From positions 1 through 64,000 of the forward strand of contig NZ_MWIO01000020.1 in assembly GCF_004799035.1 (NCBI RefSeq): 64,000 nt of DNA, given 5' to 3'. Source of the stretch: Rhodanobacter lindaniclasticus (lineage in GTDB: Bacteria > Pseudomonadota > Gammaproteobacteria > Xanthomonadales > Rhodanobacteraceae). The notes beneath the pieces are model-generated. The model ran no database searches, was not told where the DNA came from, and saw only the letters and a list, made by a program, of their open reading frames with translations. A program made the translations under genes and the position numbers. This document shows, one piece after another, positions 20,649 to 54,777 of this stretch. Numbering within the stretch: the first letter of the stretch is position 1; each line of letters begins with the position of its first letter.

Positions 20649-22631
20649 CTACTTGTTGCCGTCGCGCACCGCCTTCACCTGTTCGGCGGTCACCTGCTTG
20701 GCCTGGTTGTCCCACGACGTGCGCTCGTGGTTGGCGATGTCGGCGATGTCCGCGTCATTGAGGGTGGTGGCGAACGGCGGCATCACGCTGGGGTAGCTGA
20801 CGCCGTCGATAGCCACGCCCTGCAGCCCGTGCAGGATCACGTCCAGATGCTTGGTCGGGTCCGCGTCCAGCACGGCGGGGTTGCCCTTGAGCGGCGGGAA
20901 CGCACCGGGCAGGCCCAGCCCGGTGGGCTGGTGGCAGGCGGCGCAGTAGGTGGCGTAGAGCTGCGCGCCGTGGGCCGGATCGAACTTGTACGGGCCGGTG
21001 GCGGCCGGCGGCGGCACGGCGGACACATCCACCGGTGCCTTGGTGATCTGCGGCTTGGCCAGCGCCTCGCCCGGCGTGGCGATCTCCAGGATGCCCTGCG
21101 CGCCGAGCACGGCGTGCGCCATCGAGTGATCCACGAACGGGTAATGGCCCGCCTCGTCCAGGGTGAGGTCGAACACGGCGCCCTCGCCCGGACCCACCGA
21201 GTAGGTGGAGACGCCGTCGATGGCCTGCGCCGGGTTGCCGCCGGGGTACACCTTGTCGAAGATCGCGCCGATCACGTGAAACGCGCTCCACAGGTTGGGC
21301 CCGGCGTTGACCACGTACAGGCGCACGAGGTCGCCGGGCTTCGCGGTCAAGGGATGCTGCGCGTACTGGAAGGCGGTGCCGTTGAATACCACCTCGTCCG
21401 GACGGATCTGCTGCATCTTCTCGTAACTGCCGGCCATCAGCGTGCCGGAGACCTGCTGGGTGTACCACTCCCCCTGCACCAGCACGTAGCTCTCGGCGGC
21501 AGGCGGCAGCGGCTCGGCCGGGTCGACGATGATCGCGCCGTACATGCCGTTGCCGATGTGCAGCAGTACCGGCGGCGTGCCGCAGTGGTAGAGGAACGCG
21601 CCGGGCACCTTGGCCACGAACGAGAACTTGATCGACTCGCCCGGCATGATGTCCACGTAATGCAGGCTCGGCGGCGTGATCGCCGAGTGGAAGTCGACCG
21701 AGTGCTGCATGGTGCCGCGGTTGGTGAACGTGACATTCACCGTCTGCCCCTGACGCACGTGGATCACCGGGCCGGGCACGGTCTTGCCGAAGGTCCAGGC
21801 CTGGTACTGCACGCCACTGGCGATCTCCACGGTGTCGTTGCTGGAGGTGATCTGTACATCCACGCTGTCGCCCGGCTGCAGCGGCGGCAGGCGCGCGTCG
21901 CGGGCCTGCTTGATCGGCTGGGTGGAGGCCAGCGACAGCGGCGTCACCGCGGCGGCTGCGGCGGCCGGGCTGGCGCTGCGCACGTTCAGTGCGCTGTGCA
22001 ACCCGGCCAGCAGCAGCGCCACCAGCAGCAGCACGCCGGCCAGCGCCGGTCCCTGCACGCGCCACGACAGGGGCCGCACCTGTTCCAGCGGCACCCGCGT
22101 GTTCCACTCCGAGAACCGCCGCCAGCGCGGCCAGCGGCTCTCGATCAGGTAATCCAGGCTGTACGGGCTGGGACCGGCGCGCAGGTTGATCACGATCAAC
22201 GCGGCGAAGATCAGCACGAAGCTGATCGCCGCGCCGATGTTGTTGGCGCCGACCGAATACGGCCCGCCGAAACCTTCGGCCGTGCTCCAGATCAGCAGGC
22301 TGAACAGGATGCCGACGACGTAGGTGATCTTGCGCGCGAAGCCCAGCAGCAGGGCCAGTGCCAGCAGCGTCTCGGCGATCCGCGTCGCCCACACGAACAG
22401 GCCCACGTGCGGCGTGACCACCGCGATCCACATGTCGAACCACCACGCCGACCACGCTGGCTGGCCGGTGGCGGCGTTGTGCAGGTAGCCGACGTAGTGG
22501 TCGGCGAAGCCGTCGGTCCAGGTCAGCGCGGCGCTCACCGCCCAGATCACGCCGAAGGCCACCCGCAGCGCGGTGCCCGCGATCGCGGGCCAGGTCGATG
22601 GGGCAGCGGTGTCGTCGTGGATCGAACTCAT
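20649..22631 (-). CDS. nirK: Copper nitrite reductase NirK with N-terminal DoxX-like and C-terminal cytochrome c domains
   Basis: NirK reduces nitrite to nitric oxide in denitrification. This 660-residue form has three parts. Residues of about 15-210 are a DoxX-like multi-helix membrane module. Residues of about 240-530 are the two cupredoxin domains with all copper ligands: MQHSVDFHS (type 1 and type 2 His), YHCGTPPVLLHIGNGM (type 2 His; type 1 Cys, His, Met) and SAFHVIG (type 2 His). Residues of about 550-650 are a cytochrome c domain with CAACH. The membrane module would anchor the enzyme facing the periplasm and the haem could deliver electrons to the type 1 copper. The start has GGAG 7 bases upstream. 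It is separated from the biotin genes by an inverted repeat. Confidence 0.92.
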   Translation of the reverse strand: MSSIHDDTAAPSTWPAIAGTALRVAFGVIWAVSAALTWTDGFADHYVGYLHNAATGQPAWSAWWFDMWIAVVTPHVGLFVWATRIAETLLALALLLGFARKITYVVGILFSLLIWSTAEGFGGPYSVGANNIGAAISFVLIFAALIVINLRAGPSPYSLDYLIESRWPRWRRFSEWNTRVPLEQVRPLSWRVQGPALAGVLLLVALLLAGLHSALNVRSASPAAAAAAVTPLSLASTQPIKQARDARLPPLQPGDSVDVQITSSNDTVEIASGVQYQAWTFGKTVPGPVIHVRQGQTVNVTFTNRGTMQHSVDFHSAITPPSLHYVDIMPGESIKFSFVAKVPGAFLYHCGTPPVLLHIGNGMYGAIIVDPAEPLPPAAESYVLVQGEWYTQQVSGTLMAGSYEKMQQIRPDEVVFNGTAFQYAQHPLTAKPGDLVRLYVVNAGPNLWSAFHVIGAIFDKVYPGGNPAQAIDGVSTYSVGPGEGAVFDLTLDEAGHYPFVDHSMAHAVLGAQGILEIATPGEALAKPQITKAPVDVSAVPPPAATGPYKFDPAHGAQLYATYCAACHQPTGLGLPGAFPPLKGNPAVLDADPTKHLDVILHGLQGVAIDGVSYPSVMPPFATTLNDADIADIANHERTSWDNQAKQVTAEQVKAVRDGNK

Positions 22632-22769
22632 GCGAATCTCCAGGGCAGGATGGGCGAAGCGCAAACGCGGCGTGCACGCCACGGTTGATGAACGAGTGTA
22701 GACCGCGGGTGCACTCCGCGCGACCCGCGGTTGCCGCTACCATCGGTCGACGCGGGGACGGGGGAGACC

Positions 22770-30088: not shown

Positions 30089-30666
30089 GCGTCCGGGATG
30101 CGCTCCCGGCAGGCGGTTCGATACGAAAAAGGAGAGGGGCCGGATCGGGCGGGCGACGCGGCCACCATGAGCTTGCGGACGCGCCCGGTCCGGCCCTGAA
30201 TGGCAGGCCGCAGCTGCCTTTCGGGCGGTTCGCGGCGCACTCGCCCACGGGGCTGGACAAGCCCACGGCAGTGTGATAAAAAACGAAATGTTAGCGCTAA
30301 CAACAAAAGCGCGATCATGTTCCTGAAACGGCATGGCACGCCATGCAGACGCAAGCGCAAACGGGCCGCGCCGGGTTGTTCGGTGCGGCGTGGCGACATC
30401 CGGCGCCTCATGGCGTCCGGCTCAGAGTTGGTCAGGCGAGGCAGGGCGGCAGGCGTGGCCTGCAGGCGTTTCCGGGGGGCGGAAACGTCGACTTCTTCAA
30501 CCGGCCAGCGAAGTGGGGAGGAACCCGATAAAGAAATCACGGAGATCTGTACTGGCCCGCATCCGTTGAGGTCCGCGACGGAGGCGACTACCGCGGTGCG
30601 CGCAAGAAAACTTCACGCGCACGACGTCCAGCTATCGTTCAGCAGCCAGGAGGGGAGTGCCCGCGT
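30089..30666. other. 578-base gap: end of GH43 operon and leader of the receptor operon
   Basis: No protein gene is supported here. An inverted repeat with 15-base arms (30137-30151 and 30182-30196, one mismatch, 30-base loop) may end the GH43 transcript. A xyl-box operator is at 30289-30302. From there to the receptor start codon is about 360 bases, which would be a long untranslated leader, ending in the strong ribosome binding site AGGAGGGGAG at 30648. Confidence 0.6.
30289..30302. promoter_or_regulatory. xyl-box operator TGTTAGCGCTAACA (receptor operon)
   Basis: This perfect 14-base palindrome is one base away from the xyl-box TGGTAGCGCTAACA recognised by the LacI-family XylR of Xanthomonas. 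The identical sequence stands before xylB, and a one-mismatch copy stands before the local LacI-type gene. TAACAA at its right end could be a -10 element. It should control the receptor-to-GH9 genes. Confidence 0.8.
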
Positions 30667-33600
30667 ATGAATTACTTCAAGTTGAAGCACCTCAGGTCGA
30701 AGGTCATGTTCACGATTGTCGGTGGCGTGGTCATCATCAATCCGCTCTACGCGCAAGACACGCAACCGGCGACTCCGACGACGAGTTCGACCTCGCAGTC
30801 GCCGAACAAGCCGCAGAAGCCATCGGCGACCAACCTGCAGACCGTCACGGTCACCGGCGTGCGCAACAGTCTCGAACAGTCGATGAACATCAAGCGCTAC
30901 GCGATCGGCGTCGTCGATGCGGTCAGCGCCGAAGACATCGGCAAGTTCCCGGATACCAACATCGCCGAGTCGCTGCAGCGCATCACCGGCGTCTCGATCG
31001 ACCGTCGCGACGGTGAAGGCTCGCAGGTCACCGTCCGTGGCTTCGGTCCGGATTTCAACATGATCACCGTCGATGGGCGCACCATCCCCGGCGCGGACGC
31101 CTTCGGTGCGCCGGGCCAGGTGCCGCTCGGCAACGTCGACGGCGGCACGCGCTCGTTCAACTTTGCCCAGTTGTCGCCCAACGGGGTCAGCTCCCTGGAG
31201 GTCTACAAGACCGGCCGCGCCAACGTGGCCAGTGGCGGGCTGGGCGCCACCATCGACATCAGGACCAACCGCCCGCTCGATCACGACGGCGGCAAGATCA
31301 TCGGCTCGGTCGGTACCAAGGGCATCCTCGACAAGTCCCAGCCGTTCGATACCAGCATCACGCCGGAAGTTTCCGGCAACTTCAGCTACGCCAACCCGGA
31401 CAAGACCTGGGGTATCGGCCTCGACGCCAGCTACACCAAGCGCCACGGCGGCTCGGTCCAGGCGACGGAGAACACCTGGGCGGTGCAGCCCTGGACCGGT
31501 ACCGCGAATGGCTTCAACGCCAACACCAACATCGTCAACGAGCCGGCCATCGGCCAGCTGTATGCGATTCCCAACGACGTCCGCTACGCGTACTACGACT
31601 TCGAGACCAAGCGCAAGAACGCCCACGCGGTGTTCCAGCTTCGGCCTCTCGATGGCCTGACCATGACGCTGGACTACCTGTACTCCCGGTACAACATCAA
31701 TGCCAACCGCGGCGAACAGAGCATGTGGTTGCAGCAACAGAACTTCACCGACGTGACGTTCGACACCGACAATGCCGTGGCCACGCCGACGTACATGCGC
31801 GATGTGGTGCAGACCAAGGATTTCGGCATGGAACAACAGCGTTACATGCAGAAATACAAGCTGGATGACGTCGGTTTCAATACCGAGTGGGCCGTCACGG
31901 ACGACCTCACGCTGACCCTGGATCTGCACGACGCCAAGAGCCAGAGCCTGCCCAACGACCCGCTGACGGGTGGTGGCGCCACCCAGATCAGCATCGCCGG
32001 CACCAACAATTGCGCAACCGGTCCGCAGTGCGGTGGCTCGTGGGCGCAGGAGTTCTTCTTCAACAACGGCCTGCCGATTGCAACGCGTACCTGGTACCCG
32101 ACGACGGATTCCACCGGTGCCGGCCAGGTCAACGTGCCCTTCGCGGCCAACAACCTCGGCGCGCAACCCCTGCGCATCGATGCGCAGGGGCAGACCACCG
32201 AAGTCAAGGAAGCGCAGTTCGGTGGCGACCTGGAGTTCGACAACGGCCGCTTCCAGTTCGGCGCAGATCTTTCGAAAACCAAACTGCACCGTACCCAGGC
32301 GGCCCAGAACTACCAGAACCTGGGCGGCTGGGGCGTGGACGATGCAGGCCTGTACCCCGACCTGATGGACCACCTGAAGGCGGTCAACACGGTGGGCCTG
32401 TTCTCCGGCTACAACACCGATGGCATCGCACAGAGCACGTGGATCGGCAATGCCGACGAACTCGCCAAATGGGCGGTTTCCCATTATCCCGAAGCCAACC
32501 TCAGGGTCAGCCCGACGCTGCAGGCCGACAATGTCGTCGTCGAAAACACCAAGGCCATTTATGCGCAGATCGTGCTGGACGGCCAGTTGGGCAGCCTGCC
32601 CACCAACACCCGCTTCGGCCTGCGCTACGAGCAGACCGACGTCAGTTCCACCTCGCAAGTCGGGGTTCCGAGCGGAATCATCTGGCAGTCGAACAATGAC
32701 TTCCAGACCCCGGTCGGCACGACGGTCCAGCCGGTCAGCGCGAGCGGCAGCTACAGCAATTTGCTTCCCAACGTCGACTTCAGCGTCGACTTCACCGACT
32801 CGCTGAAGGGACGTGCCTCCTACAGCAAGACGATTGCGCGGGCGCCTTACAGCAACCTTTACGCGGGTGCCACCGCGAACAGTCCGACCGGATCGATCCT
32901 CATCAATCCATCATCCCGTGCCGGTGGCAGCGACAACGACCCGGGCTTGAAGCCACTGTCGTCCGACAACCTCGATCTCGGCCTGGGCTGGTATTTCGCG
33001 CCGTCCAGCTATGTGTCGGTGACGTTCTGGGACAAGCGTGTCGACAACTTCATCGGTACCTCGGTGACGACCGGCAACCTGTACGGCCTGCGTGACCCCA
33101 CCTCCGGTCCCCGGGCACAGCAGGCCAAGGCATTCCTCGAAAGCGCCGCGTGCACGGCCCAGACGGGAGCGCCATGCGAGGTGAACGACACGACGCTGTT
33201 CGCCACGGTGGCGATGTTGTCGAACCCGGAGACCGGCGGGCTGGCCGCCTACGACGGTACCGATGCCCAGTCGCTGGCCCTGGAAAGCAAGTACGACATC
33301 ACCGCCAATCCGGATGACCCGCTGTACGACTACTCGATAAGCAAGCCCGCCAACGTCCACAAGGCGATGCTGCACGGCTGGGAGCTGGGTGGTCAGTACT
33401 TCCTGGGCGATACCGGCTTCGGCATCCTGGCGAACTACACCAAGGTCGATGGTGACGTGCACTACGACGATGCCGGTGACCCGGGCGTCGATCAGTTCGC
33501 ATTGACCGGCCTCAGTGACAGCGCCAATGTCGTGCTGATGTACGAGAAGTACGACTTCTCGGTGCGTCTGGCCTGGAACTGGCGCGGCGAGTTCCTGACC

Positions 33601-33825
33601 GCGACCAACCAGAACAACCAGAACCGCAACCCGTACTATGTCGACGCGTATCACCAGTACGATCTGAGCATCAACTACAACTGGAACGATCATCTGTCGT
33701 TCCAGCTGGAAGGCATCAACCTGACGGGCGAAGATGTCCGTTGGCGCGCACGCTCGGAGAAGGAGTTCGTCAGACTGGTAGACAACAAGCCGCGCTATGC
33801 GCTCGGCGTACGCTACAAGTTCTGA
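30667..33825 (+). CDS. TonB-dependent receptor, polysaccharide-uptake (CUT) type
   Basis: The 1052-residue outer membrane receptor belongs to the large Xanthomonas/Caulobacter group of TonB-dependent receptors for oligosaccharides. A signal peptide covers about residues 1-29. A TonB-box-like LQTVTVTGVR is near residue 57. The plug domain includes IGKFPDTNIAESLQRITGVS and RGFGPDFNMITVDGR, and the beta-barrel ends with RYALGVRYKF. No SusD-like gene is present, which fits this proteobacterial group. Its operator and neighbours point to xylo- or xyloglucan oligosaccharides as cargo, but the ligand is inferred. Confidence 0.95.
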   Translation: MNYFKLKHLRSKVMFTIVGGVVIINPLYAQDTQPATPTTSSTSQSPNKPQKPSATNLQTVTVTGVRNSLEQSMNIKRYAIGVVDAVSAEDIGKFPDTNIAESLQRITGVSIDRRDGEGSQVTVRGFGPDFNMITVDGRTIPGADAFGAPGQVPLGNVDGGTRSFNFAQLSPNGVSSLEVYKTGRANVASGGLGATIDIRTNRPLDHDGGKIIGSVGTKGILDKSQPFDTSITPEVSGNFSYANPDKTWGIGLDASYTKRHGGSVQATENTWAVQPWTGTANGFNANTNIVNEPAIGQLYAIPNDVRYAYYDFETKRKNAHAVFQLRPLDGLTMTLDYLYSRYNINANRGEQSMWLQQQNFTDVTFDTDNAVATPTYMRDVVQTKDFGMEQQRYMQKYKLDDVGFNTEWAVTDDLTLTLDLHDAKSQSLPNDPLTGGGATQISIAGTNNCATGPQCGGSWAQEFFFNNGLPIATRTWYPTTDSTGAGQVNVPFAANNLGAQPLRIDAQGQTTEVKEAQFGGDLEFDNGRFQFGADLSKTKLHRTQAAQNYQNLGGWGVDDAGLYPDLMDHLKAVNTVGLFSGYNTDGIAQSTWIGNADELAKWAVSHYPEANLRVSPTLQADNVVVENTKAIYAQIVLDGQLGSLPTNTRFGLRYEQTDVSSTSQVGVPSGIIWQSNNDFQTPVGTTVQPVSASGSYSNLLPNVDFSVDFTDSLKGRASYSKTIARAPYSNLYAGATANSPTGSILINPSSRAGGSDNDPGLKPLSSDNLDLGLGWYFAPSSYVSVTFWDKRVDNFIGTSVTTGNLYGLRDPTSGPRAQQAKAFLESAACTAQTGAPCEVNDTTLFATVAMLSNPETGGLAAYDGTDAQSLALESKYDITANPDDPLYDYSISKPANVHKAMLHGWELGGQYFLGDTGFGILANYTKVDGDVHYDDAGDPGVDQFALTGLSDSANVVLMYEKYDFSVRLAWNWRGEFLTATNQNNQNRNPYYVDAYHQYDLSINYNWNDHLSFQLEGINLTGEDVRWRARSEKEFVRLVDNKPRYALGVRYKF

Positions 33826-33942: not shown

Positions 33943-34695
33943 ATGGCACGTTACGAATTGCTCAACAACGTGGCGCACAAGGATTTGCGCATCGCCGCCC
34001 GCTTCGGTCGGGCCTTTGGCGACGATGTGGGCATGGTGCCGGCCTACCCCACCGAATACGCCGAATTGCAGCGCGAATATCCGATCTTCTTCCAGAAGGA
34101 CAGCGAGACCGGCGAGTACCGCTCCGTGGCCCTGCTGGGTTTTGCCCGCGACGAAAACCTGTATCTCCAGGGTGAACGCTGGAACGCCGGCTATCTGCCC
34201 GGCCACATCGCCCGCGGACCGTTCCTGATCGGTTTCCAGGAGCAGGATGTCGACGGCGAACGGCGTTGCGAGGCGGTCATCCACGTCGACCTCGACCATC
34301 CCCGCGTCAGCTTCGACGAGGGTGAGCCGGTATTTCTTCCGCAGGGCGGCAACAGCCCGTATCTGGAGCAGGTCGCCACCGTGCTGCGCGGCATCCGCGA
34401 TGGCGTGGATGGCGGCAAGGCGATGTACGAGATCTTCGATTCCATGGGCTTGATCCAGCCGATCACGCTCGACATCAAGTTCGACGACACGCATGGCGCC
34501 AATGTCACCGGCCTGCTCGGCATCGACCGTGAACGGTTGGCCGCACTGGATGCCGAATCGCTGCACGTGCTGCACCGCTCGGGATATCTCGAAGGCGCCT
34601 ACCTGGTACTGGCGTCCATGCACAACCTGCGCCGGCTGATGGCCGAAAAGCAGCGCCGCCTGAGCCGCGAGGAAATCGCCGCGAACGCGGGCTGA
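33943..34695 (+). CDS. SapC-family protein
   Basis: The 250-residue cytoplasmic protein matches the family named after the Campylobacter S-layer protein SapC (for example NLYLQGERWNAGYLPGHIAR, RGPFLIGFQEQ and LGIDRERLAALDAE). In Xanthomonadales and Caulobacterales it occurs repeatedly next to TonB-dependent receptors and halogenase-like genes; no S-layer role is likely here and its function is unknown. GGGGAG lies just before the ATG. It begins a closely spaced run with the cupin gene, 5 bases downstream. Confidence 0.85.
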   Translation: MARYELLNNVAHKDLRIAARFGRAFGDDVGMVPAYPTEYAELQREYPIFFQKDSETGEYRSVALLGFARDENLYLQGERWNAGYLPGHIARGPFLIGFQEQDVDGERRCEAVIHVDLDHPRVSFDEGEPVFLPQGGNSPYLEQVATVLRGIRDGVDGGKAMYEIFDSMGLIQPITLDIKFDDTHGANVTGLLGIDRERLAALDAESLHVLHRSGYLEGAYLVLASMHNLRRLMAEKQRRLSREEIAANAG

Positions 34696-34700
34696 TCGCC

Positions 34701-35723
34701 ATGACGGAATCCGTTGCCAGAATCCGCGAACGATCGGATGTCCAGGCCGACGCACTGCCCCTGGACGAGCTGCTTGCCGCAGGAGAGCCCGTCGTCCTGC
34801 GTGGCCTGGCACGTGACTGGAAGCTGACGCAGGCGGGGCGGCGTTCGGTGGCGGACGCCATGGCCTGCCTGCGTGGTTTCGACGGCCATCGCCCGATCCA
34901 GTATTCGTATGGTGCGCCCGACATCGCCGGGCGGGTGTTCTACACCGACGACTTCAGCGCGATCAATTGCGAGGTCCGGCGCGGCAGCCTGGACGAACTG
35001 CTCGATGCCATAGCCGCGCACCTCGACGATCCGCACCCGCCGACCTGGTACATGGCTTCGGCACCGGTCGACAACCTGCTGCCCGGGTTCCGCGATGTCG
35101 ATGACCTGGACTTCGCCGCCCGCGGCATCGATGCGCCACCGCGTGCGTGGATCGGCAACCGTACCATCGCCTCGGCGCATTACGACGCGATGAACAACAT
35201 CGCCTGCTGCGCCGTGGGCCGGCGGCGGTTCACGCTGTTTCCGCCCGAGCAGATCGCCAACCTCTATCCGGGCCCGCTGGAGCCGACGCCGGGAGGACAG
35301 GCGGTCAGCGTGGTCGATTTTACCTCCCCCGATTTCGCGCGCCACCCGCGCTTTCGCGACGCGCTGGCGGCGGCGCAGGGCGCGGTGCTGGAACCGGGGG
35401 ATGCGGTGTTCATTCCCAGCCTGTGGTGGCACCACGTGGAGGGGCTGGATGCGTTCAACGTGCTGGTCAACTACTGGTGGAGCAGTGCGCCGGCGTACGT
35501 GCCAACGCCGATGCATGCGCTGTATCACGCGCTGTGGAGCATCCGCGACCGCCCCGAGCGGGAAAAGCGCGCATGGCGCGCGATCTTCGACTACTACGTT
35601 TTCGGCCCCGCCGGGCATGCGGGCGAGCACCTGCCCGAGGCGGCGCGCGATGTGCTGGGGCCGCTCGACGAAACCAAGACGCGGCAACTGCGGGCGATGC
35701 TGATCAACCGGCTGAACCGATAA
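34701..35723 (+). CDS. Cupin-like JmjC-type Fe(II)/2-oxoglutarate oxygenase
   Basis: The 340-residue protein resembles the cupin_8/JmjC group of non-haem iron oxygenases. The facial triad is visible as HYD in ASAHYDAMNNIACC and a distal His in SLWWHHVEGLDAFN, set in a fold with FTLFPPEQIANLYPGP and VLEPGDAVFIPS. Members hydroxylate proteins, RNA or small molecules. The gene is fixed between SapC and the halogenase-like gene in receptor loci of this kind, but no substrate is known. There is no signal peptide. Confidence 0.86.
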   Translation: MTESVARIRERSDVQADALPLDELLAAGEPVVLRGLARDWKLTQAGRRSVADAMACLRGFDGHRPIQYSYGAPDIAGRVFYTDDFSAINCEVRRGSLDELLDAIAAHLDDPHPPTWYMASAPVDNLLPGFRDVDDLDFAARGIDAPPRAWIGNRTIASAHYDAMNNIACCAVGRRRFTLFPPEQIANLYPGPLEPTPGGQAVSVVDFTSPDFARHPRFRDALAAAQGAVLEPGDAVFIPSLWWHHVEGLDAFNVLVNYWWSSAPAYVPTPMHALYHALWSIRDRPEREKRAWRAIFDYYVFGPAGHAGEHLPEAARDVLGPLDETKTRQLRAMLINRLNR

Positions 35724-35848
35724 ACGGCGGCGAGGCCTGGATCCGGTTCATGCGCCGGCCATCACGCGGGAGGCGGCAAGGTTCCAGCTGGCACGGAACC
35801 CTGCCATGCGCAGGAACGATGCGGCACGACCAACGGGGAGAATTCGAC

Positions 35849-37372
35849 GTGGGTACTCACAGGATACGCAAGGTGGTGGTGGCCGGCGGCGGCACGGCGG
35901 GCTGGATCGCAGCGAGCGCGCTGGCGTACCAGCTCAAGGACCAGCTCGAGGTCACCCTGGTCGAGTCCTCGGCGATCGCCACTGTCGGCGTCGGTGAAGC
36001 CACGGTGCCCCCCATCCGCAATTTCCACCGGTTCATGAACATCGACGAGCAGGAATTCCTGCGCGCGGTGGCCGGCACCTTCAAGCTGTCGATCTCGTTC
36101 GAGAACTTCGTGCGACCCGGCCACCGCTACATCCATCCCTTCGGCATCACCGGCAAGGGCACGCTGGTCGCCGGCTTCGAGCACTTCTGGCTGGACAGCC
36201 TGCGCCGGGGCATGAAGTCGGAGCTGCACAACTACAGCCTGGAAGCGATGGCCTCGCTCGGCAACCAGTTTGCGCTGACCGACGAGCCGGAGATCAATTA
36301 CGCGTACCACATGGACGCCGCGCTCTACGTCAAGTTCCTGCGCGAGAAATTCCAGCCTTGCGGGATCAGGCAGATCGACGGAAAGATCAAGGAGGTACGG
36401 CAGCATCCGGAGAGCGGCTACGTGGAAGCGCTGGTGCTGGAAGGCGGCCAGGTGATCGAAGGCGATCTGTTCATCGACTGCACCGGTTTCCGCGGCCTGC
36501 TGATCGAACAGACGCTGGAAACCGGTTACGAGGACTGGCACAACTGGCTGCCCTGCGACCGCGCGATTGCGCTGCAGACCAAATCCGTCGACCCGTCGCC
36601 GGTGCCGTACACGCGTGCGATCGCCCATGAAGCCGGCTGGCGCTGGCACATCCCGGTACAGCACCGCGTCGGCTGCGGACTGGTGTACGACAGCCGGCAC
36701 ATGTCGGACGACGAGGCGCAGGCCAAGTTGCTGCGTGATGTCGGTGCCGAGCCGGTCAGGGATCCCTGGCCGGTACGCTTCCGCACCGGGCGCCGCTTGA
36801 AGGCCTGGAACAAGAACGTGGTCGCGCTGGGTCTGGCCAGCGGCTTCATCGAACCGCTGGAATCGACCAGCATCCACCTGGCCATGAGTGCGGTGATGCA
36901 GCTGGTCGAGCTGTTTCCGTCCGAAGGCATCCCCGATTCGCTGGTCCGGATCTACAACGACAACTGCCGTCGCGAGCTGGAGCACGTGCGGGATTTCATC
37001 ATCCTGCATTACCACGCCAACCAGCGTGACGAGCCGATGTGGAAGGGCTGCCGCGAGATGTCGCTGCCCGATTCGCTGCAGATCCGCATCGATGCCTGGC
37101 GCGACCGCGCGCACGTGTGGAGGGACCAGTCCGAACTCTTCGCGACCACCTCGTGGATACACGTGCTGCTGGGCCAGGGCGTGATGCCGAAACAGCACCA
37201 CCCGCTGCCGCGCGAACTGTCCGATGCCGACCTGCGCCGCCTGCTCGACAGCATCCGCGGGCCGATCGATCGCGCGGTCCCGCGGATGCCGCTGCAGCAG
37301 GTCTTCATCGATCGCTACTGCAAGGCAGCGCCGGAAGTGTGGAACATGAAGCGCCCGACCGCGACGGCGTGA
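35849..37372 (+). CDS. Flavin-dependent tryptophan halogenase-like protein
   Basis: The 507-residue protein has all the marks of flavin-dependent halogenases. The FAD motif is VVVAGGGTAGWIAAS, followed by VGVGEATVPPI. A Lys equivalent to the catalytic Lys of tryptophan halogenases is in TFKLSISFENF, the WxWxIP motif is WRWHIP, and the active-site Glu is in GFIEPLESTSIH. The start is GTG with GGGGAG 8 bases upstream; an ATG at 35819 is the alternative. Homologs in carbohydrate receptor loci have no demonstrated halogenation substrate. Its position suggests modification of a sugar-linked aromatic or of a protein. Confidence 0.88.
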   Translation: MGTHRIRKVVVAGGGTAGWIAASALAYQLKDQLEVTLVESSAIATVGVGEATVPPIRNFHRFMNIDEQEFLRAVAGTFKLSISFENFVRPGHRYIHPFGITGKGTLVAGFEHFWLDSLRRGMKSELHNYSLEAMASLGNQFALTDEPEINYAYHMDAALYVKFLREKFQPCGIRQIDGKIKEVRQHPESGYVEALVLEGGQVIEGDLFIDCTGFRGLLIEQTLETGYEDWHNWLPCDRAIALQTKSVDPSPVPYTRAIAHEAGWRWHIPVQHRVGCGLVYDSRHMSDDEAQAKLLRDVGAEPVRDPWPVRFRTGRRLKAWNKNVVALGLASGFIEPLESTSIHLAMSAVMQLVELFPSEGIPDSLVRIYNDNCRRELEHVRDFIILHYHANQRDEPMWKGCREMSLPDSLQIRIDAWRDRAHVWRDQSELFATTSWIHVLLGQGVMPKQHHPLPRELSDADLRRLLDSIRGPIDRAVPRMPLQQVFIDRYCKAAPEVWNMKRPTATA

Positions 37373-37389
37373 CCGGAACGGCTCGCGCC

Positions 37390-38085
37390 ATGCTGATCGA
37401 ACGCCATCACGACATCCGCATCGAGAAGCGCAGCATCGGCGACGAGGGGGCGCCGTTGCTGGTCATCGACCAGCTTGTCGCCGATCCCGAGCGGCTGGTA
37501 CGCCGGGCCGTGCGCCGGGCCTTCGGTCCCATGGGCGAGCACTTTCCGGGGGCGCGTACCGGCGCTCCGGCCATGTACGGGCCTTTGCTCGAATCAGTAC
37601 TGAACCCGTTGTTGCCGGAGCACTTCGGGATCCGGCCCGGCCGTTTCCGGTTCTCGATGTGCCATTACTCCCTGGTCGCCACGCCGCCGGCGGAATTGCG
37701 CTTCCTGCAACGGGTGCCGCACATCGATTCGGACGACGGCAACGGACTGGCGACCGTGCACTACCTGTTCCACGGCGACTGGGGTGGCACCGCGTTCTAT
37801 CGGCACCGCCAGACCGGCTTCGCGTATGTCGACAAGTCGCGACGGGAGGCCTACTTCCGCCGGCTCGAAGCCGAAAGCCATGGCAGCGATGTGCCCGCTC
37901 CCGGCTACATCAACGGCAGCACGGCGCTGTTCGAGCAGATCGCCAGGGTGGAGGCCGTGTTCAACCGCATGATCGTGTATCGGCGCAATTCGCTGCACTC
38001 GGCCTGCGTCGACGACCGGCATGTTCCGCCAGCCGATCCGCTCGACGGGCGGCTGTCGATCAACACCTTCATCGACGTGGCGTAA
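37390..38085 (+). CDS. DUF6445-like putative Fe(II)/2-oxoglutarate oxygenase
   Basis: I recognise this 231-residue protein only as a DUF6445-like family found next to halogenase-like genes. It contains VPHIDSDDG (HxD), then GGTAFYRH, then NSLHSACV and GRLSINTF. The order HxD, distal His, Arg is what a 2-oxoglutarate oxygenase (prolyl-hydroxylase-like) active site would show. It follows the halogenase-like gene after 17 bases and precedes GH9 by 21 bases, so it is part of the same operon. Confidence 0.75.
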   Translation: MLIERHHDIRIEKRSIGDEGAPLLVIDQLVADPERLVRRAVRRAFGPMGEHFPGARTGAPAMYGPLLESVLNPLLPEHFGIRPGRFRFSMCHYSLVATPPAELRFLQRVPHIDSDDGNGLATVHYLFHGDWGGTAFYRHRQTGFAYVDKSRREAYFRRLEAESHGSDVPAPGYINGSTALFEQIARVEAVFNRMIVYRRNSLHSACVDDRHVPPADPLDGRLSINTFIDVA

Positions 38086-38106: not shown

Positions 38107-40722
38107 ATGGCAAACATGCATGGTCGTTCGCATCGAGGCGGGTTGGTGTCGCGCAGGGGGTGGCTGGGCTGCCTGTCACTGGTGCTTGCGGTCGCCTCGT
38201 TGGCGAACGCGTGGGCTTCCGGCGAGGCGCCGGGTCTGGCGCTGACCGATACGGGATATCTCCGGGGCAACGGGGCGAGCGTCATGCTCTACGCCGACAG
38301 CTACAGCCCGATCTTCTTCGACCAGAAGAACGCAGCCCTGCAGATCATCCTGCACGGTCGCCGCATCGCGACCAACGGCAGCCTGCGTTTCTCGCCCACG
38401 CCGGAACAATGGAGTCGCATTCCGCATCTGGTGCGACGGTGGACCGACCGTGCCCACGGTCGGCTCGTCGCGCAGCTGTCGTATCCCGCGTATCACCTCG
38501 ACTACCACATCAACGTCACGCCGGAGCCAGGCGGATTCCGTGTCAGCCTGGATCTCGACCAACCGCTGCCGGAGGCGGCGGTGGGCCGGGTCGGCTACAA
38601 CCTGGAGTTTCTCCCGTCCATCTACGCGGACCAGGCCTACGAGGTCGACGGGGTCGTCCGGGGCATGTTGCCGCGTGATCCGCAGGGGCGGATGGTCGCC
38701 GATCCGCCGGCGCGCGGAGCGCCTCCCTTGCCGTGGTATGTCGAACAGTGGCGCGCGACCCGGCAGCACATGGTTCCGCGTGCCTTCGCCGCGGGACACC
38801 GCGTGACGCTGGTACCCGAGGACCGGTTGCATCGCGTCAGCATAAGCTCCGAGGACGCGGAGGTGCGGCTCTACGACGGGCGCAACCAGGCCCAGAACGG
38901 CTGGTTCGTGGCGCGTTCGCTGGTGCCGCCGGGAAAGACCACGGACGCGATCGTGTGGCATGTCCAGCTGGCCTCCGTGCCGGGCTGGACCCGGGCGCCG
39001 GTGATCGCGCACAGCCAGGTGGGTTATGCGCCGCGATTCCCCAAGGTGGCGGTGATCGAACTGGACCCGGCCGGCGATGCCCCGAAGACGGCATCGCTGC
39101 TGCGGCTGTCCGCCGAGGGCACGTTCGAGAAGGTCTACCAGGCGCAGGTCTCCACGCCGCAACCGTGGTTGCGCTACGCGTACGCGACCTTCGATTTTTC
39201 CTCGACGCGCCAGCCGGGCCTGTACAAGATCGAATACGCCGACCAGCAAACGGCGCCGTTCCGCATTGCCGACGACGTCTACGACCACACCTGGCAAACC
39301 AGCCTGGACGGATTCATGGCGGTGCAGATGGATCACGTCGCCGTGCGTGACGCCTACCGTGTCTGGCATGGCGTCGCGCACGGGGACGATGCGCGCCAAG
39401 CGCCGCCCGAGGTGCGTTCGTTCGACGGCTACTGGATGGGCGCGCAGACCTACTCCCCGTTCGAGCCCGGCGAGCACGTCCCGGGCCTGGATGTCGGTGG
39501 CTGGTTCGACGCCGGGGATTTCGACAACGACGTGTTCGACCAGTTGCAGACCATCCGCAACCTGGCCCTGAGCTGGAGCACGTTCCGGCCGACATGGGAT
39601 GAACTCACGGTCGACGAGCAGGCGCGCAGCGTGGTGATGCACCAGCCCGACGGCATCCCCGATGTCGTCCAGCAGGTCGAGCATGGCGTGCTGCAGACGA
39701 TGGCGCAGATCCGTGCGTTCGGCCATCCCATCATGGGCATCCACGCCTCCACCCTGGCGCAGTACACGTTCATCGGGGATGCCGCCTCGCAGACGGACGG
39801 GCGCATCCACGATTCGCGGGCCGATGGCAGCGGAGTGGATGGAAGCCATGCCGGTGCGCCGGACGATCGCTGGGCGTGGACCAACTACAACGCGTCGATG
39901 GACTACTCCGCCATCGCCTCGCTGGCCGCCGCCTCGGCCGCGTTGAAGGGTTGGAATGACGGGCTTGCGCAGGAGTGTCTGCAGTCCGCCATCGCGCTCT
40001 GGCAACGCGAGCAGGCGCACCCCGGACCCGAGGTGGCGGGGCGGTTCGATCAACCGAGCCCGTCGTACCAGTGGGCGGCGGCGCTGGAACTGATGATCGC
40101 CACGCGAGGCGCCGAGCCGTACCGGCAGCGTGTCGAGGCGTTGTTCCCGTCCGTCGTGCAGGACATGACGGACCGGGGATGGACCGCGGTGCGGGCGCTT
40201 CCCTACCTCGCCCCGGCCGAGGCCGCCCGCTTCAGGAAAGCGCTGGAGGCCTGGCTGCCGGAGATGCACAAGCGGATGGCCAGTACTCCGTTCGGCGTGC
40301 CGCCGTCCGCGGGCGGCTGGGGCAATGCCGCGCAGGTGGCGCGCTTTGGCGTCGCCATGTATTTCCTGCACCACGCCTTCCCCGACGTGGTCAGCCCGGA
40401 GCCCACCCTGCGTGCCGTCAACTACCTGCTGGGCACGCACCCGGTTTCCGGCACTTCCTGGATTGCCGGCGTCGGCACCGTCTCGACGCTGCATACGTAC
40501 TCGAACAATCGTGGCGACCAGGGCTACATCCCCGGCGGGATGGTTCCCGGCTACATCGTGGTCAAGCCGGATTTTCCCGAATCCGTCGACGACTTCGGCA
40601 TGCTTTGGTTCGAGCACGAGACGACCATCGGCGCGGCCACCGACTGGATTCTCGCCGCCCAGGCCGCAGCGGCGATCGCCAAAGAGACGGACGCCGGCGC
40701 CTCACTCAACGCCGCACACTGA
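38107..40722 (+). CDS. GH9 endoglucanase-type enzyme with N-terminal extension and Ig-like domain
   Basis: The 871-residue exported protein is a family 9 glycoside hydrolase. After a signal peptide (about residues 1-38) comes an unassigned beta-rich region of about 250 residues, then a cellulase Ig-like domain (VIAHSQVGYAPRFPKVAVIE onward, about residues 298-390), then the (alpha/alpha)6 catalytic domain. The base motif is GGWFDAGDFDND near residue 464, and the acid Glu is in WFEHETTIGAATDW near residue 836. GH9 members cut cellulose, mixed-linkage glucan or xyloglucan. It is the last gene of the receptor operon, and its 3' end overlaps the convergent GH3 gene by 17 bases. Confidence 0.88.
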   Translation: MANMHGRSHRGGLVSRRGWLGCLSLVLAVASLANAWASGEAPGLALTDTGYLRGNGASVMLYADSYSPIFFDQKNAALQIILHGRRIATNGSLRFSPTPEQWSRIPHLVRRWTDRAHGRLVAQLSYPAYHLDYHINVTPEPGGFRVSLDLDQPLPEAAVGRVGYNLEFLPSIYADQAYEVDGVVRGMLPRDPQGRMVADPPARGAPPLPWYVEQWRATRQHMVPRAFAAGHRVTLVPEDRLHRVSISSEDAEVRLYDGRNQAQNGWFVARSLVPPGKTTDAIVWHVQLASVPGWTRAPVIAHSQVGYAPRFPKVAVIELDPAGDAPKTASLLRLSAEGTFEKVYQAQVSTPQPWLRYAYATFDFSSTRQPGLYKIEYADQQTAPFRIADDVYDHTWQTSLDGFMAVQMDHVAVRDAYRVWHGVAHGDDARQAPPEVRSFDGYWMGAQTYSPFEPGEHVPGLDVGGWFDAGDFDNDVFDQLQTIRNLALSWSTFRPTWDELTVDEQARSVVMHQPDGIPDVVQQVEHGVLQTMAQIRAFGHPIMGIHASTLAQYTFIGDAASQTDGRIHDSRADGSGVDGSHAGAPDDRWAWTNYNASMDYSAIASLAAASAALKGWNDGLAQECLQSAIALWQREQAHPGPEVAGRFDQPSPSYQWAAALELMIATRGAEPYRQRVEALFPSVVQDMTDRGWTAVRALPYLAPAEAARFRKALEAWLPEMHKRMASTPFGVPPSAGGWGNAAQVARFGVAMYFLHHAFPDVVSPEPTLRAVNYLLGTHPVSGTSWIAGVGTVSTLHTYSNNRGDQGYIPGGMVPGYIVVKPDFPESVDDFGMLWFEHETTIGAATDWILAAQAAAAIAKETDAGASLNAAH

Positions 40723-46688: not shown

Positions 46689-48932
46689 CTATCGGCTCTG
46701 GCCCGGGGCGTCGGGAAACGTCAGCGATTCGTAGTACCGCAGCGGATGCGCCGGCGGCGCGTAGCCGGGCGGCAGCGGCAGGCTGTTGAGGCTCTGCCAG
46801 TAGGCGATGCTGGCGTCGCGCCACCATTGCGCCTCGCGCTGCTGGATGGCCAGGAATGCGGCGGCCTTGAGCTGGCGTTCGGCATCGACGTGGCCCTGCA
46901 GGCCGCGCCAGCTCGCACGCATCGTCTGCACCGCATCGAGGCCTCGCGTGTAGTGCTCCACCAGGGCCTGCCACAGCGTGGCGCCGGAGCGCATGCGGTA
47001 CGTCCAGGGCACGTGGTGGAACCAGAGCAGATACGCGTCCGGCACGCAGGCGAGGTCGGCAAGACAGCGCGCCAGCGGCGGCGCGTACTGCGCCACCGCG
47101 TCGCTGCCGGTGGCGGTACGATCGAAGCCGATGCCGCGCGCGTCGGCGCGGTTGTAGTACGTCGGGTTCCAGTCCGCACGCGGCAGGCTGTGGTCCCACG
47201 GCGCCGGCCCATAGTGGCTGCCGGCCCCCATCTGGTGGGCCAGGCCCAGCGGCGTCATGTAGTCGACCGCCGCCTCGCGCGAGGCCATCATCATGTCCAC
47301 CACCGGACCGACGAAGCCCGGGTCGTTCGAGAAGGTCATGCGCACCCAGTCGTCCGCGATCGCGCGCGCGGACTGTTGCGGATCCCACGCCAGACGGCCG
47401 AAGGCGTACCAGTTGGCCTGGTTGAAGTCCGAGCCGCACCAGTCACGCTCGCTGCCGGTGTTGGCGACGCCGGCGATGCCGCTCGGCGCATGGCCGTCCC
47501 TTCGTCCCTCGATCACCCTGGCCACGGTCGATCCCTTGCCGTGCGCCATGGTGTCGGCCGCGAGCGCCTCCTTGAACAGCGGCCCCAGATAGACCAGGTT
47601 CGTGGCGAAGCCCAGGTACTCCTTGGTGATCTGCAGCTCCATCATCAGCGGCGTCTTCGGCATCGCGCCGAACAGCGGGTTGAAGGGCTCGCGCGGCTGG
47701 AAATCGAGCGGGCCGTTCTTCACCTGCAGCAGCACGTTGGCGGCGAACTTGCCATCCAGCGGCTTGAACTCGTCCCAGGCCTGCTTGACCCGATCCTCGC
47801 CGGGGCGGTTCGCGTAGACGAAGGCGCGCCACATCACCACGCCGCCGTGTGGCGCGAGTGCGGCGGCGAGCATGTTGGCGCCATCGGCGTGAGTGCGACC
47901 GTAGTCCTGCGGGCCGGACTGGCCTTCCGAATGGGCCTTGACCAGGAAGCCGCCGAAATCCGGGATGAGCCGGTAGATCTCGTCCGCCTTGTCGCGCCAC
48001 CAGCCGCGCACCGCGGGGTCGAGCGGATCGGCGGTTTTCAATCCGCCCAGCCTGACAGGTGCGTCGAACGGCACGCTGAGGTAGGCGCGGATGCCCCAGG
48101 CGCGAAATACGCCGGCCAGTGCCGCCACCTTCAGCAGATACCGGTGCGTCAGGATCAGCGGGTCGGCATTGACGTTGTTGAGCACGCTGCCGTTGATGCC
48201 GATCGAGGCGTTGGCGCGGGCATAGTCGGTGTAGCGCGGATCCAGATCATCCGGCAGCGTCCACCAGTTCCAGAGGGACTGGCCGGCGTAGCCGCGCTCG
48301 ACGTGGCGGTCGAGATCGTCCCAGTGATCGAGCACGCGCAGCTGCATGCGCGGCGTGTCGCGCAGGTCGAGCGTTCCGGCGGGACGCCCGATCTGCAGCA
48401 GACGCAGGAATCGGAACGCGCCGTACAGGACGCCGATGTCGGTGTTGCCGGCAATCACCGTGGCGGCGTGGCCGTTCACGCGCATGCTCCTGACCAGGTA
48501 GCCCTCGCTGCCCAGATCCCGGGTGTCCAGGTGCAGGCTCGCGATCAGCGCCGACGATGACGGCGTGCCGGCGACGATGGCGCCGTCGCGGGTTACCTCG
48601 GCGGACAGCGGCGGTGGCGTGCCCAGCAGGCCGCCCAGGCCGCGCAGCAATTCACTGCGGGTCGCGGCCTGGGTCGACGTCGCCTTGCCCACGATCAGTT
48701 GCCCGGCCTGGTTGCGGTAGGCAGCGGCCGCCGCGGCAGGGAGCGGGTGGTAACGCAGCCACAGCTCGTAGCCGTCTTCGGCGCGGGCATGCCCCGCGCA
48801 CAGGCAGGCGGCCAGCGCCAGCAGGCCTGCGGCGAACGGGCGCCGGACGTGCTTCCGGAGTACGTTTCCCGCGCGCGATGTCGCCCCGCGGCGACGGCCG
48901 TGGTCGCCGGCGCGGACTGTTACCGCTAACAT
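46689..48932 (-). CDS. Exported GH67 alpha-glucuronidase
   Basis: The enzyme removes 4-O-methylglucuronic acid from the non-reducing end of glucuronoxylo-oligosaccharides. The 747 residues match bacterial GH67. Typical segments are LRVLDHWDDLDRHVERGYAG, the acid-bearing FLVKAHSEGQSGPQDYGR, VKNGPLDFQPREPFNPLF and MMELQITKEYLGF, which carry the catalytic carboxylates. A signal peptide follows a long basic start (RRPFAAGLLALAACLCAGHA). The start is doubtful: the only nearby in-frame ATG lies within the xyl-box and has no ribosome binding site; another ATG is at 48956. First gene of the xylan debranching operon. Confidence 0.88.
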   Translation of the reverse strand: MLAVTVRAGDHGRRRGATSRAGNVLRKHVRRPFAAGLLALAACLCAGHARAEDGYELWLRYHPLPAAAAAAYRNQAGQLIVGKATSTQAATRSELLRGLGGLLGTPPPLSAEVTRDGAIVAGTPSSSALIASLHLDTRDLGSEGYLVRSMRVNGHAATVIAGNTDIGVLYGAFRFLRLLQIGRPAGTLDLRDTPRMQLRVLDHWDDLDRHVERGYAGQSLWNWWTLPDDLDPRYTDYARANASIGINGSVLNNVNADPLILTHRYLLKVAALAGVFRAWGIRAYLSVPFDAPVRLGGLKTADPLDPAVRGWWRDKADEIYRLIPDFGGFLVKAHSEGQSGPQDYGRTHADGANMLAAALAPHGGVVMWRAFVYANRPGEDRVKQAWDEFKPLDGKFAANVLLQVKNGPLDFQPREPFNPLFGAMPKTPLMMELQITKEYLGFATNLVYLGPLFKEALAADTMAHGKGSTVARVIEGRRDGHAPSGIAGVANTGSERDWCGSDFNQANWYAFGRLAWDPQQSARAIADDWVRMTFSNDPGFVGPVVDMMMASREAAVDYMTPLGLAHQMGAGSHYGPAPWDHSLPRADWNPTYYNRADARGIGFDRTATGSDAVAQYAPPLARCLADLACVPDAYLLWFHHVPWTYRMRSGATLWQALVEHYTRGLDAVQTMRASWRGLQGHVDAERQLKAAAFLAIQQREAQWWRDASIAYWQSLNSLPLPPGYAPPAHPLRYYESLTFPDAPGQSR
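48918..48931. promoter_or_regulatory. xyl-box-like operator TGTTACCGCTAACA (GH67 / lacI)
   Basis: This copy has one mismatch from the perfect palindrome seen at 30289 and 54764. It sits between the divergent GH67 and LacI-type genes and overlaps the apparent GH67 start codon. It could serve both transcription units and give autoregulation of the regulator. Confidence 0.7.
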
Positions 48933-49044
48933 GCAGCCATGTCGAAATGTCGCCATGTTCGACTTACCATCGGAAGGGTTGCCGGTGCTTGGGGTCATCG
49001 CGTCGCGGCTTCCGGGCCACGAGTCCGCAGAAGGAAAAACGGCA

Positions 49045-50124
49045 TTGAACAAGACAGTCAGGAAATCGGTCCGCCGCAGGGGAATGGCCGTCACCATCGA
49101 CGAGGTGGCCGCGCTTGCCCAGGTATCGCCGATGACGGTGTCGCGTGTCGTCAACGGCCAGAGCAAGGTGCGCGAGTCGACACGCGAACGCGTGATGCAG
49201 GCGGTGGGCAAACTGGGCTACGTGCCGAACCGGGCGGCCAGTTCCCTTGCCGCCGCGCAGGATGCGCGAATCGCGCTCATCTACACCAATCCCAGCTCCG
49301 CCTATTTGCGCGAGCTCCTGCTGGGCGTGTTGCACGTGACGGCGCGTACCACGTTCCAGCTGATCATCGATGACTGGGAGGGCTTCGATGCCGCCGCTGA
49401 ACGCAAGGCCGCACGTACCCTGGGCGGGAGCGTGGGGGGCGTCATCCTGCCGCCGCCCCTGTGCGAATCGAAGGTGGTCATCGGGGAGCTGGGTCGTGCG
49501 GGCGTGCCGATGGTCGCGATCGCTTCGGGCAGTTTCAATCCCGATATCTCCAGCGTGCGCATCGACGATTTCCTGGCCGGCAAGGAAATCACCGAGTACC
49601 TGATCAAGGCCGGCCACACACGCATCGCCTGCGTCAAGGGCCACCCCAACCAGATGGCCAGCCAGCGTCGCTTCGAGGGCTACAAGGCTGCACTCAAGGA
49701 AGCGGGCATTGCGCCGGATGCGCAGCTGGTACAGCAAGGCTATTTCACCTACCGCTCGGGGCTGGACGCGACGGAGAAGCTGCTGTCGCTGCGCAAGCCG
49801 CCCACCGCGATCTTCGCCAGCAACGACGACATGGCCGTCGCCGCGGTTTCGGTGGCGCATCGACGCGGCCTGCAGGTGCCCCGGGATCTGTCCATTGTGG
49901 GCTTCGACGACACCTCGGCGGCGACCACCATCTGGCCCGAGCTCACCACCGTGCGCCAGCCGATCGGCAACATGGCCGACGCGGCGATCGACATCCTGCT
50001 GCGCGCGATCCGTCGCAAACCCGAAGACCACCGCGTGGTGGTCGACCATGTGATGGCGCATCAGCTGGTGGTGCGTGATTCGGTGGCACCTCCGCCGGTG
50101 CTCGCGCGCAAATCGGGTACCTGA
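49045..50124 (+). CDS. LacI-family regulator, XylR-like
   Basis: The 359-residue regulator has an N-terminal LacI helix-turn-helix (VTIDEVAALAQVSPMTVSRV, then KVRESTRERVMQAVGKLGY) and a periplasmic-binding-protein-like sugar-binding domain (GAGHT-type segment IKAGHTRIACVKG, then FASNDDMAVAAVS and DLSIVGFDDTSAA). The start is taken as TTG at 49045, with AAGGA upstream; an ATG at 49084 just before the HTH and upstream ATGs are alternatives. It is divergent from the xylan debranching operon, with an operator in between, and very probably represses the xyl-box genes until a xylose-containing ligand binds. Confidence 0.88.
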   Translation: MNKTVRKSVRRRGMAVTIDEVAALAQVSPMTVSRVVNGQSKVRESTRERVMQAVGKLGYVPNRAASSLAAAQDARIALIYTNPSSAYLRELLLGVLHVTARTTFQLIIDDWEGFDAAAERKAARTLGGSVGGVILPPPLCESKVVIGELGRAGVPMVAIASGSFNPDISSVRIDDFLAGKEITEYLIKAGHTRIACVKGHPNQMASQRRFEGYKAALKEAGIAPDAQLVQQGYFTYRSGLDATEKLLSLRKPPTAIFASNDDMAVAAVSVAHRRGLQVPRDLSIVGFDDTSAATTIWPELTTVRQPIGNMADAAIDILLRAIRRKPEDHRVVVDHVMAHQLVVRDSVAPPPVLARKSGT

Positions 50125-54763: not shown

Positions 54764-54777
54764 TGTTAGCGCTAACA
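54764..54777. promoter_or_regulatory. xyl-box operator TGTTAGCGCTAACA (xylBA operon)
   Basis: A perfect palindrome identical to the one before the receptor operon. On the minus strand TAACAT overlaps its end as a -10, and TTGCGC lies 18 bases upstream as a -35, so the operator covers the promoter. The word GCTAGCGC just outside may be a half site. Confidence 0.82.

Follow-up and report, generated by a model that had tools for sequence, protein, structure and literature searches.

The window, which is the whole 64,000-nucleotide stretch of Rhodanobacter lindaniclasticus DNA analysed here (contig NZ_MWIO01000020.1, positions 1 to 64,000), contained a cassette of four genes encoding a SapC family protein, a Cupin_8 (JmjC-type) protein, a flavin-dependent halogenase (FDH) and a DUF6445 protein, located behind the gene for a TonB-dependent receptor (TBDR). 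Comparison with other genomes showed that the cassette and one TBDR clade have been inherited together as a single unit, which does not by itself prove contact between the proteins. The gene order was conserved, cassette members diverged together with the receptor, the catalytic residues were intact and the association was independent of any one sugar. Overall, we consider that the cassette may modify the receptor chain, or a receptor-linked peptide, in the cytoplasm before export with SapC as an adaptor, and this reading is given a probability of slightly less than 0.4.

Conservation of the cassette with its receptor

Loci were anchored on SapC with a five-sequence alignment, using one genome per species, and the partner genes were called with profiles of the window proteins. 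The best 80 of 114 relatives by similarity to the window SapC gave 79 distinct loci, a sample rich in near relatives from Xanthomonas and Luteimonas, with cassette loci spanning alpha-, beta- and gammaproteobacteria. A TBDR was present 5' of SapC on the same strand within 2.2 kb in 76/79 loci (immediately adjacent in 56, separated from SapC by a single FDH gene in 20). Cupin_8 was found in 76/79, Cupin_8 followed by FDH downstream in 74/79 and DUF6445 in 22/79. The gene families named in the preliminary description make up a genuine block linked to a TBDR. A relative of the glycoside hydrolase family 9 (GH9) enzyme that follows the block in the window was found in 2/79 loci, on the opposite strand. 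The flanks of 30 representatives varied: some lineages had GH3, GH1, GH16, GH94, GH2, LacI and MFS genes, and others had genes for UvrD, an ABC protein, a PurL-type protein and a secretin.

Loci L066 and L077 had SapC without TBDR, Cupin_8 or FDH; the SapC gene of L077 starts 0.6 kb from a contig end, and a contig end cuts the upstream side of L087. The lone SapC of L066 (Pseudoxanthomonas koreensis) looks like a remnant, as relatives with similar flanks hold the full cassette. L107 was reduced to TBDR and SapC, and L126 to TBDR, SapC and Cupin_8 with no FDH. L090 (Caulobacter vibrioides DSM 9893), with receptor, SapC, only a fragment of Cupin_8 and no FDH found, is a natural partial loss of the cassette. 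The C. vibrioides genome used as a control gave matches to SapC, TIGR01782 and PF04820, and in a laboratory strain of this species the cassette corresponds to CC0999-CC1002. The SapC-receptor pair survived in L107 and L126 and also in Sphingomonas sp. R1, whose plasmid annotation showed TBDR, SapC and halogenase with no cupin.

Public annotation was inspected for five plasmids out of the 39 whose records matched SapC, the Sphingomonas sp. R1 plasmid among them. A Sphingobium plasmid carried TBDR, SapC, cupin-like and tryptophan halogenase genes followed by GH16, LacI, MFS, GH3 and GH43, while the full set of Sphingomonas parapaucimobilis stood beside arsenic and type VI genes. A Catenovulum plasmid had the order TBDR, hypothetical gene, halogenase and SapC, and the stretch inspected of a Pseudomonas plasmid held SapC with none of the cassette partners. 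When all SapC genes in 61 genomes of the order were considered, 16/30 had, among the matches listed, a same-strand TIGR01782 receptor no more than 3 kb away. For the remaining 14, again among the matches listed, one, at the end of a contig, adjoined an FDH and the other 13 had neither receptor nor FDH within 3 kb. The genome of the window itself has a second SapC of another subgroup (L188; contig C93, 4571-5251), near genes for DXP synthase and an X-Pro peptidase, with neither receptor nor FDH found alongside; SapC thus has roles outside the cassette.

A tree was built of 99 receptors: 35 with the cassette, 15 with FDH only and 49 with neither. The last group resulted from 109 eligible receptors, of which 56 were drawn and 49 fetched, and these were taken regardless of the distance to the far contig end. 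All 35 cassette receptors fell in one clade and the 49 FDH-free receptors all fell outside it; the only other member of the clade was L184, on a contig ending in a SapC fragment. Receptors with FDH only were scattered over the tree (9 changes), and FDHs are therefore linked to several other receptor clades. Distance correlations over 85 complete cassettes, some of them near-identical, were 0.92 for TBDR-SapC, 0.86 for TBDR-Cupin_8 and 0.76 for TBDR-FDH, with 0/999 permutations as high. The partial correlation was highest for TBDR-SapC (0.62). In addition, five genomes contained two cassettes, and each of the four genes was far diverged between the two copies.

The linkage of halogenase and receptor extended beyond the cassette. 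A survey of the same 61 genomes produced 80 FDH matches at E ≤ 1e-60, of which 58 had a TBDR or TBDR-like barrel no more than 6 kb away; outside SapC loci the count was 39/60. The same phmmer search at control sites 50 kb away (30 fetched of 41 possible) found a receptor at 2/30, giving Fisher p values of 3e-10 and 7e-8, respectively, uncorrected for relatedness. The receptor of locus L257 was found by Pfam alone, an aid not given to the controls, and the counts without it are 57/80 and 38/60. Some of the receptors counted are OMP_b-brl_4 barrels with a weak TonB-receptor match, as in L186, and are termed TBDR-like here. A TIGR01782 receptor was within 6 kb of 42/80 FDHs among the matches listed. 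Per genome, again for the matches listed, 25 had both FDH and TIGR01782 receptor, 3 FDH only, 16 the receptor only and 17 neither (Fisher p 0.0009). In 30 further regions with 35 FDHs, phmmer found a receptor in 12 regions (13 FDHs) and Pfam found one more. One FDH (genome G164, contig C379) adjoined a SapC fragment at the end of its contig, and no receptor was seen there. The random association across genomes that the preliminary description had named as counter-evidence was not observed, given 58/80 against 2/30 at control sites.

Each of the four FDHs of the window's genome at E ≤ 1e-60 adjoins a TBDR or TBDR-like barrel, and the set of sugar genes differs in all four cases. The second has an OMP_b-brl_4 barrel, a glucoamylase-type gene and LacI, the third a plug-and-barrel TBDR with GH39, and the fourth a TIGR01782 receptor with alpha-amylase and GH31. 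More generally, the cassette or its FDH type was found beside starch genes (amylase, GH31, pullulanase, GH97), beside beta-glucan genes (GH16, GH3, GH94, GH1), elsewhere beside GH2 or GH39, and also beside genes without an evident sugar link. Because the neighbouring sugar genes vary among xylan, starch and beta-glucan types, the link is to the receptor and not to xylan or lignin aromatics.

Catalytic residues and predicted functions of the cassette proteins

The window FDH exceeded the PF04820 cut-off and contained the GxGxxG, Lys, WxWxIP and Glu elements, which places it by sequence in the BrvH/Xcc-type family. The FAD, WxWxIP, lysine and glutamate residues attributed to it earlier were all present, as GGGTAGW, WRWHIP, an FK lysine and FIEPLES. 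Gly, Lys, WxW and Glu were invariant in 92/92 cassette FDHs of the window's type, with the last proline of WxWxIP kept in 75/92. They were also present in 25/25 FDHs of the type found in first position, with WxWxIG, and the catalytic residues were kept in 20/20 FDHs counted as SapC-free, one of which (L184) belongs to a cassette truncated at the end of its contig. The middle FDH copies in arrays had lost the Lys in 3/3 cases and mostly the Glu, and non-catalytic copies therefore exist. FDH triplets beside a receptor were observed in L164, L175 and L176, where the middle copy scored 280-332 bits to PF04820 and the outer two kept the motifs. The window's genome also has a fifth, weak PF04820 match (contig C67, 28119-29162; L030 and L031; 69 and 34 bits), with a weak TIGR01782 match about 7 kb off.

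The closest solved relatives of the FDH in the PDB sequence search were 9luq, 6y1w and 6frl (E 5e-154 to 2e-131); we take 6y1w to be the Xcc4156 entry and 6frl to be BrvH. Similarity to QhpG and LodB, flavoproteins that modify a protein during maturation, was weak (30 bits against a cut-off of 240, E 3e-7, and 30 bits against a cut-off of 400, E 2e-7). Membership of the FDH in either family was rejected, as the scores are far under the NCBIfam equivalog cut-offs.

The Cupin_8 protein was over the PF13621 cut-off, and its HxD...H triad (H160, D162 and H244) was invariant in 88/88 aligned relatives. Its PDB relatives by sequence were led by FIH and JMJD5 and also included JMJD7, the GH14974p entry and C2orf60. 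Most of these act on proteins, and FIH, JMJD5 and JMJD7 share the triad with the window protein as its best solved relatives; the best match differs in that it covers only about 110 residues (E 6e-21). To our knowledge, no substrate has been assigned to the bacterial protein.

The PDB sequence search with DUF6445 gave no match. Its structural model (predicted local distance difference test, pLDDT, 93.5) showed a 2-oxoglutarate (2OG) oxygenase fold of the double-stranded beta-helix kind, with HygX as the top PDB match (E 1.2e-4, a moderate TM-score of 0.47), and H111, D113, H203 and R221, the last being the predicted 2OG-binding Arg, were invariant in 17/17 relatives. DUF6445 is accordingly predicted from the model to be a 2OG-Fe(II) oxygenase, and the earlier observation of an HxD...H iron motif in two different proteins held for H160-x-D162...H244 of Cupin_8 and H111-x-D113...H203 of DUF6445. 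Judged by their conserved residues, the FDH and the iron enzymes of the cassette look active. Distant DUF6445 relatives (80-96 bits) occurred beside or near an FDH, with no SapC found, in L242 (257-964), L243 (3491-4228) and L245 (5162-6076); therefore the pairing of halogenase and oxygenase is wider than the SapC cassette. Pullulanase genes were present in two of these loci, L242 and L245. In L168 and L174 a DUF6445 relative (about 230 bits) lay between the receptor and the first FDH, an order that differs from the window.

SapC scored 219 bits to PF07277 against a curated cut-off of 28.9, and its model had a pLDDT of 96.5, indicating a confidently predicted fold. The family name suggests an S-layer protein role. 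The top Foldseek match in the PDB (E 0.043, TM-score 0.12) was rejected as chance, and the two PDB sequence matches (E 0.16 and 0.87) were also judged to be chance. SapC is thus a protein with a confidently predicted fold and no solved relative found by these PDB sequence and Foldseek searches. Finally, when the N-termini were read by eye, no signal peptide was apparent in SapC, Cupin_8, FDH and DUF6445, and one was present in the receptor and GH9.

Proposed substrate of the cassette and alternative explanations

According to the available text of PMC5945002 and PMC7336383, it is not known which substrates BrvH and the Xanthomonas FDHs use in nature, and the Xcc4156 site is described as open, accepting "possibly even peptides" (PMC7336383, available text). 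Because the receptor is constant, the sugar varies, the Xcc4156 site is open and the native substrates are stated as unknown, a protein substrate is the reading with the best support, in its simplest form the receptor chain before its export. In the proposed mechanism SapC, Cupin_8, FDH and DUF6445 would work in the cytoplasm, as suggested by the reading of their N-termini, and SapC would bind the receptor chain or a receptor-linked peptide ahead of Sec export, joining enzyme and receptor. The JmjC-type hydroxylase, together with the DUF6445 oxygenase where present, would hydroxylate the chain or peptide, and the open-site FDH would brominate or chlorinate an exposed indole side chain. Such a modification might tune ligand binding or folding of receptors for many different sugars. 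The wider proposal, that this is a dedicated post-translational modification system for outer-membrane TonB receptors and the native function of the whole BrvH/Xcc halogenase branch, is more doubtful.

Several results weigh against the receptor as substrate. Co-divergence is expected for any operon inherited as a block, and the genetic linkage is also consistent with action on a ligand. No receptor was found within 6 kb of 22/80 FDHs, several of which were cut by contig ends; several of the receptor-less FDHs adjoin pullulanase (five regions), GH97 and amylase, or GH9, and for others the proteins scanned included no sugar-gene neighbour. The search for a receptor residue that tracks the presence of FDH found none. 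W673 was present in 98% of the 92 cassette receptors, against 2% of the 63 other receptors, but among the matches listed it was kept in the FDH-less L107, L126 and L090 and was Met in L127, which has FDHs; covariation with the FDH was rejected for W673 and the other conserved Trp examined, as they persist after FDH loss. The Trp content was slightly higher in FDH-partnered receptors (raw p 0.007 for cassette and 0.04 for FDH-only receptors versus the 49 others), and this enrichment was not significant in independent pairs. Six groups of FDH-partnered receptors showed no common Trp, Tyr or His pattern that is rare elsewhere. The best shared motif, WxG, was dropped because it occurs in 53% of other receptors and fails to separate close sisters.

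The alternative that survives best, although improbable, is that the enzymes act on a small molecule instead of a protein, which may be imported by the receptor, an endogenous aromatic signal or a scavenged metabolite. Operon linkage to an importer is consistent with this, the fold matches of DUF6445 include HygX (hygromycin B) and OkaE (okaramine A), and BrvH and the Xcc halogenases act in vitro on free indole or indole derivatives (PMC5945002 and PMC7336383, available text). However, BrvH shows low activity on indole, and the authors who discovered it doubt that this is the natural substrate (PMC5945002, available text), no aromatic substrate common to xylan, starch, beta-glucan and GH2/GH39 loci is evident, and no aromatic-catabolism family was present among the 30 flank representatives scanned.

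It is unlikely that the substrate is another protein such as SapC itself, a co-regulated secreted enzyme or TonB. SapC keeps its place beside the receptor in loci that have lost other members and its W80 was invariant in 42/42 cassette SapC proteins, but W80 was also invariant among 14 SapC proteins including non-cassette ones, FDHs occur in starch and other loci with no SapC found alongside, and the sugar enzymes change between loci. Still less probable is that the flavin and iron proteins sense oxygen or redox state and thereby gate receptor production, with catalysis secondary; the tight operon linkage with the receptor and the three middle array FDHs without Lys would fit this, whereas the invariance of Lys, WxW and Glu in the window-type, first-position and SapC-free FDHs argues against it. 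A halogenase cluster for a natural product is disfavoured by the constant partners TBDR, SapC and Cupin_8, and no nonribosomal peptide synthetase or polyketide synthase family was present among the 30 flank representatives, small precursor open reading frames lying outside that scan.

Modification of lignin-linked aromatics released from xylan, the first possibility given in the preliminary description, is very improbable: the xylan locus around the window block does contain GH67, a carbohydrate kinase, LacI and a palindromic operator, but the idea was rejected on the breadth of sugar contexts in which the same cassette or FDH type occurs, and the scan of 16 window proteins, a part of the window's proteins, reported no feruloyl-esterase family. 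What stands of that description is the TBDR-tied block, the intact residues and the receptor as a live target.

MibH is a precedent, an FDH that acts on the Trp of a peptide and not on free Trp (PMC8269204, available text); it differs in being only 26% identical to Xcc4156 (PMC7336383, available text) and in having a lanthipeptide as its substrate, not an outer-membrane receptor. The window FDH shares the FAD, Lys and WxWxIP motifs with BrvH and the "indole" FDHs Xcc4156, Xcc1333 and Xcc4345 (PMC5945002, available text). The papers on BrvH and Xcc4156 do not mention TonB in their main text, whereas the FDH type of the window has a conserved genomic partner. The carbohydrate utilisation (CUT) loci of Xanthomonas and Caulobacter likewise combine a TBDR with sugar genes, the TBDR pair XCC2828/CC0999 being induced by xylose (PMC1790865, available text), and the word "halogenase" is absent from the main text of that paper, figures aside. 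A search of open-licence PMC papers, which leaves aside subscription papers on Xanthomonas xylan and N-acetylglucosamine loci, found no available text describing the cassette. Each of its families is already known and public annotation shows the gene order, and the cassette is a variant of the TBDR carbohydrate locus with a putative oxidative module.

BrvH and the Xanthomonas FDHs are enzymes studied as biocatalysts, and the cassette gives a lead on their role, as a near-fixed genomic partner narrows the search for the native substrate to the receptor, a receptor peptide or a receptor ligand. Should the receptor prove to be the substrate, nutrient uptake would be subject to a new level of regulation by halogenation and hydroxylation, and a class of nutrient receptors would bear halogenated or hydroxylated residues.

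The cassette and its surroundings in the window

The coordinates of the cassette and associated features are as in Table 1. Coordinates and family profiles agreed with the earlier placement of four genes between the TBDR and GH9 on a single strand. The intergenic gaps calculated from the coordinates were 117 bases for TBDR-SapC, 5 for SapC-Cupin_8 and 125 for Cupin_8-FDH, followed by 17 and 21 bases; the spacing of "mostly 5-21 bases" given previously applies to three of the five gaps and not to those of 117 and 125. The GTG start of the FDH was chosen by us. The receptor scored 714 bits to TIGR01782 against a cut-off of 310 and had Plug and TonB barrel domains.

Table 1. Features of the receptor-linked cassette and associated elements in the window.
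Feature	Positions	Strand	Basis
Palindrome TGTTAGCGCTAACA, xyl-box type operator, 5' of the receptor	30289-30302	no strand	pattern search
TBDR, TIGR01782, Xanthomonas/Caulobacter type, in the cassette-bearing clade	30667-33825	+	profile, tree
SapC family protein (PF07277), proposed adaptor	33943-34695	+	219 bits
Cupin_8 / JmjC-type Fe(II)/2OG hydroxylase (PF13621), H160-D162-H244	34701-35723	+	232 bits
FDH, BrvH/Xcc4156 type (PF04820)	35849-37372	+	600 bits
DUF6445 (PF20043), predicted 2OG-Fe(II) oxygenase, H111-D113-H203 and R221	37390-38085	+	262 bits
GH9 enzyme with CelD_N, next gene, outside the conserved cassette	38107-40722	+	profile
LacI-family regulator belonging to the xylan locus, which may read the palindrome	48931-50124	+	inference

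The surroundings of the block were those of a xylan-type locus, with GH67, GH3, an FGGY kinase, a sugar transporter and a LacI regulator. The block had been described as lying behind a xyl-box; the palindrome TGTTAGCGCTAACA, of the xyl-box type, was indeed found 5' of the TBDR. The exact pattern TGKTAGCGCTAMCA had two sites in the 4.06 Mb genome, both inside the window, the second (54764-54777) being 20 bases 5' of a minus-strand FGGY carbohydrate kinase gene (53200-54744). Imperfect copies of the palindrome were observed at 48918 and 24873. Finally, a 677-residue protein with multicopper-oxidase and cytochrome c domains was encoded at 20649-22682, adjoining a radical-SAM/BATS protein at 19505-20545.

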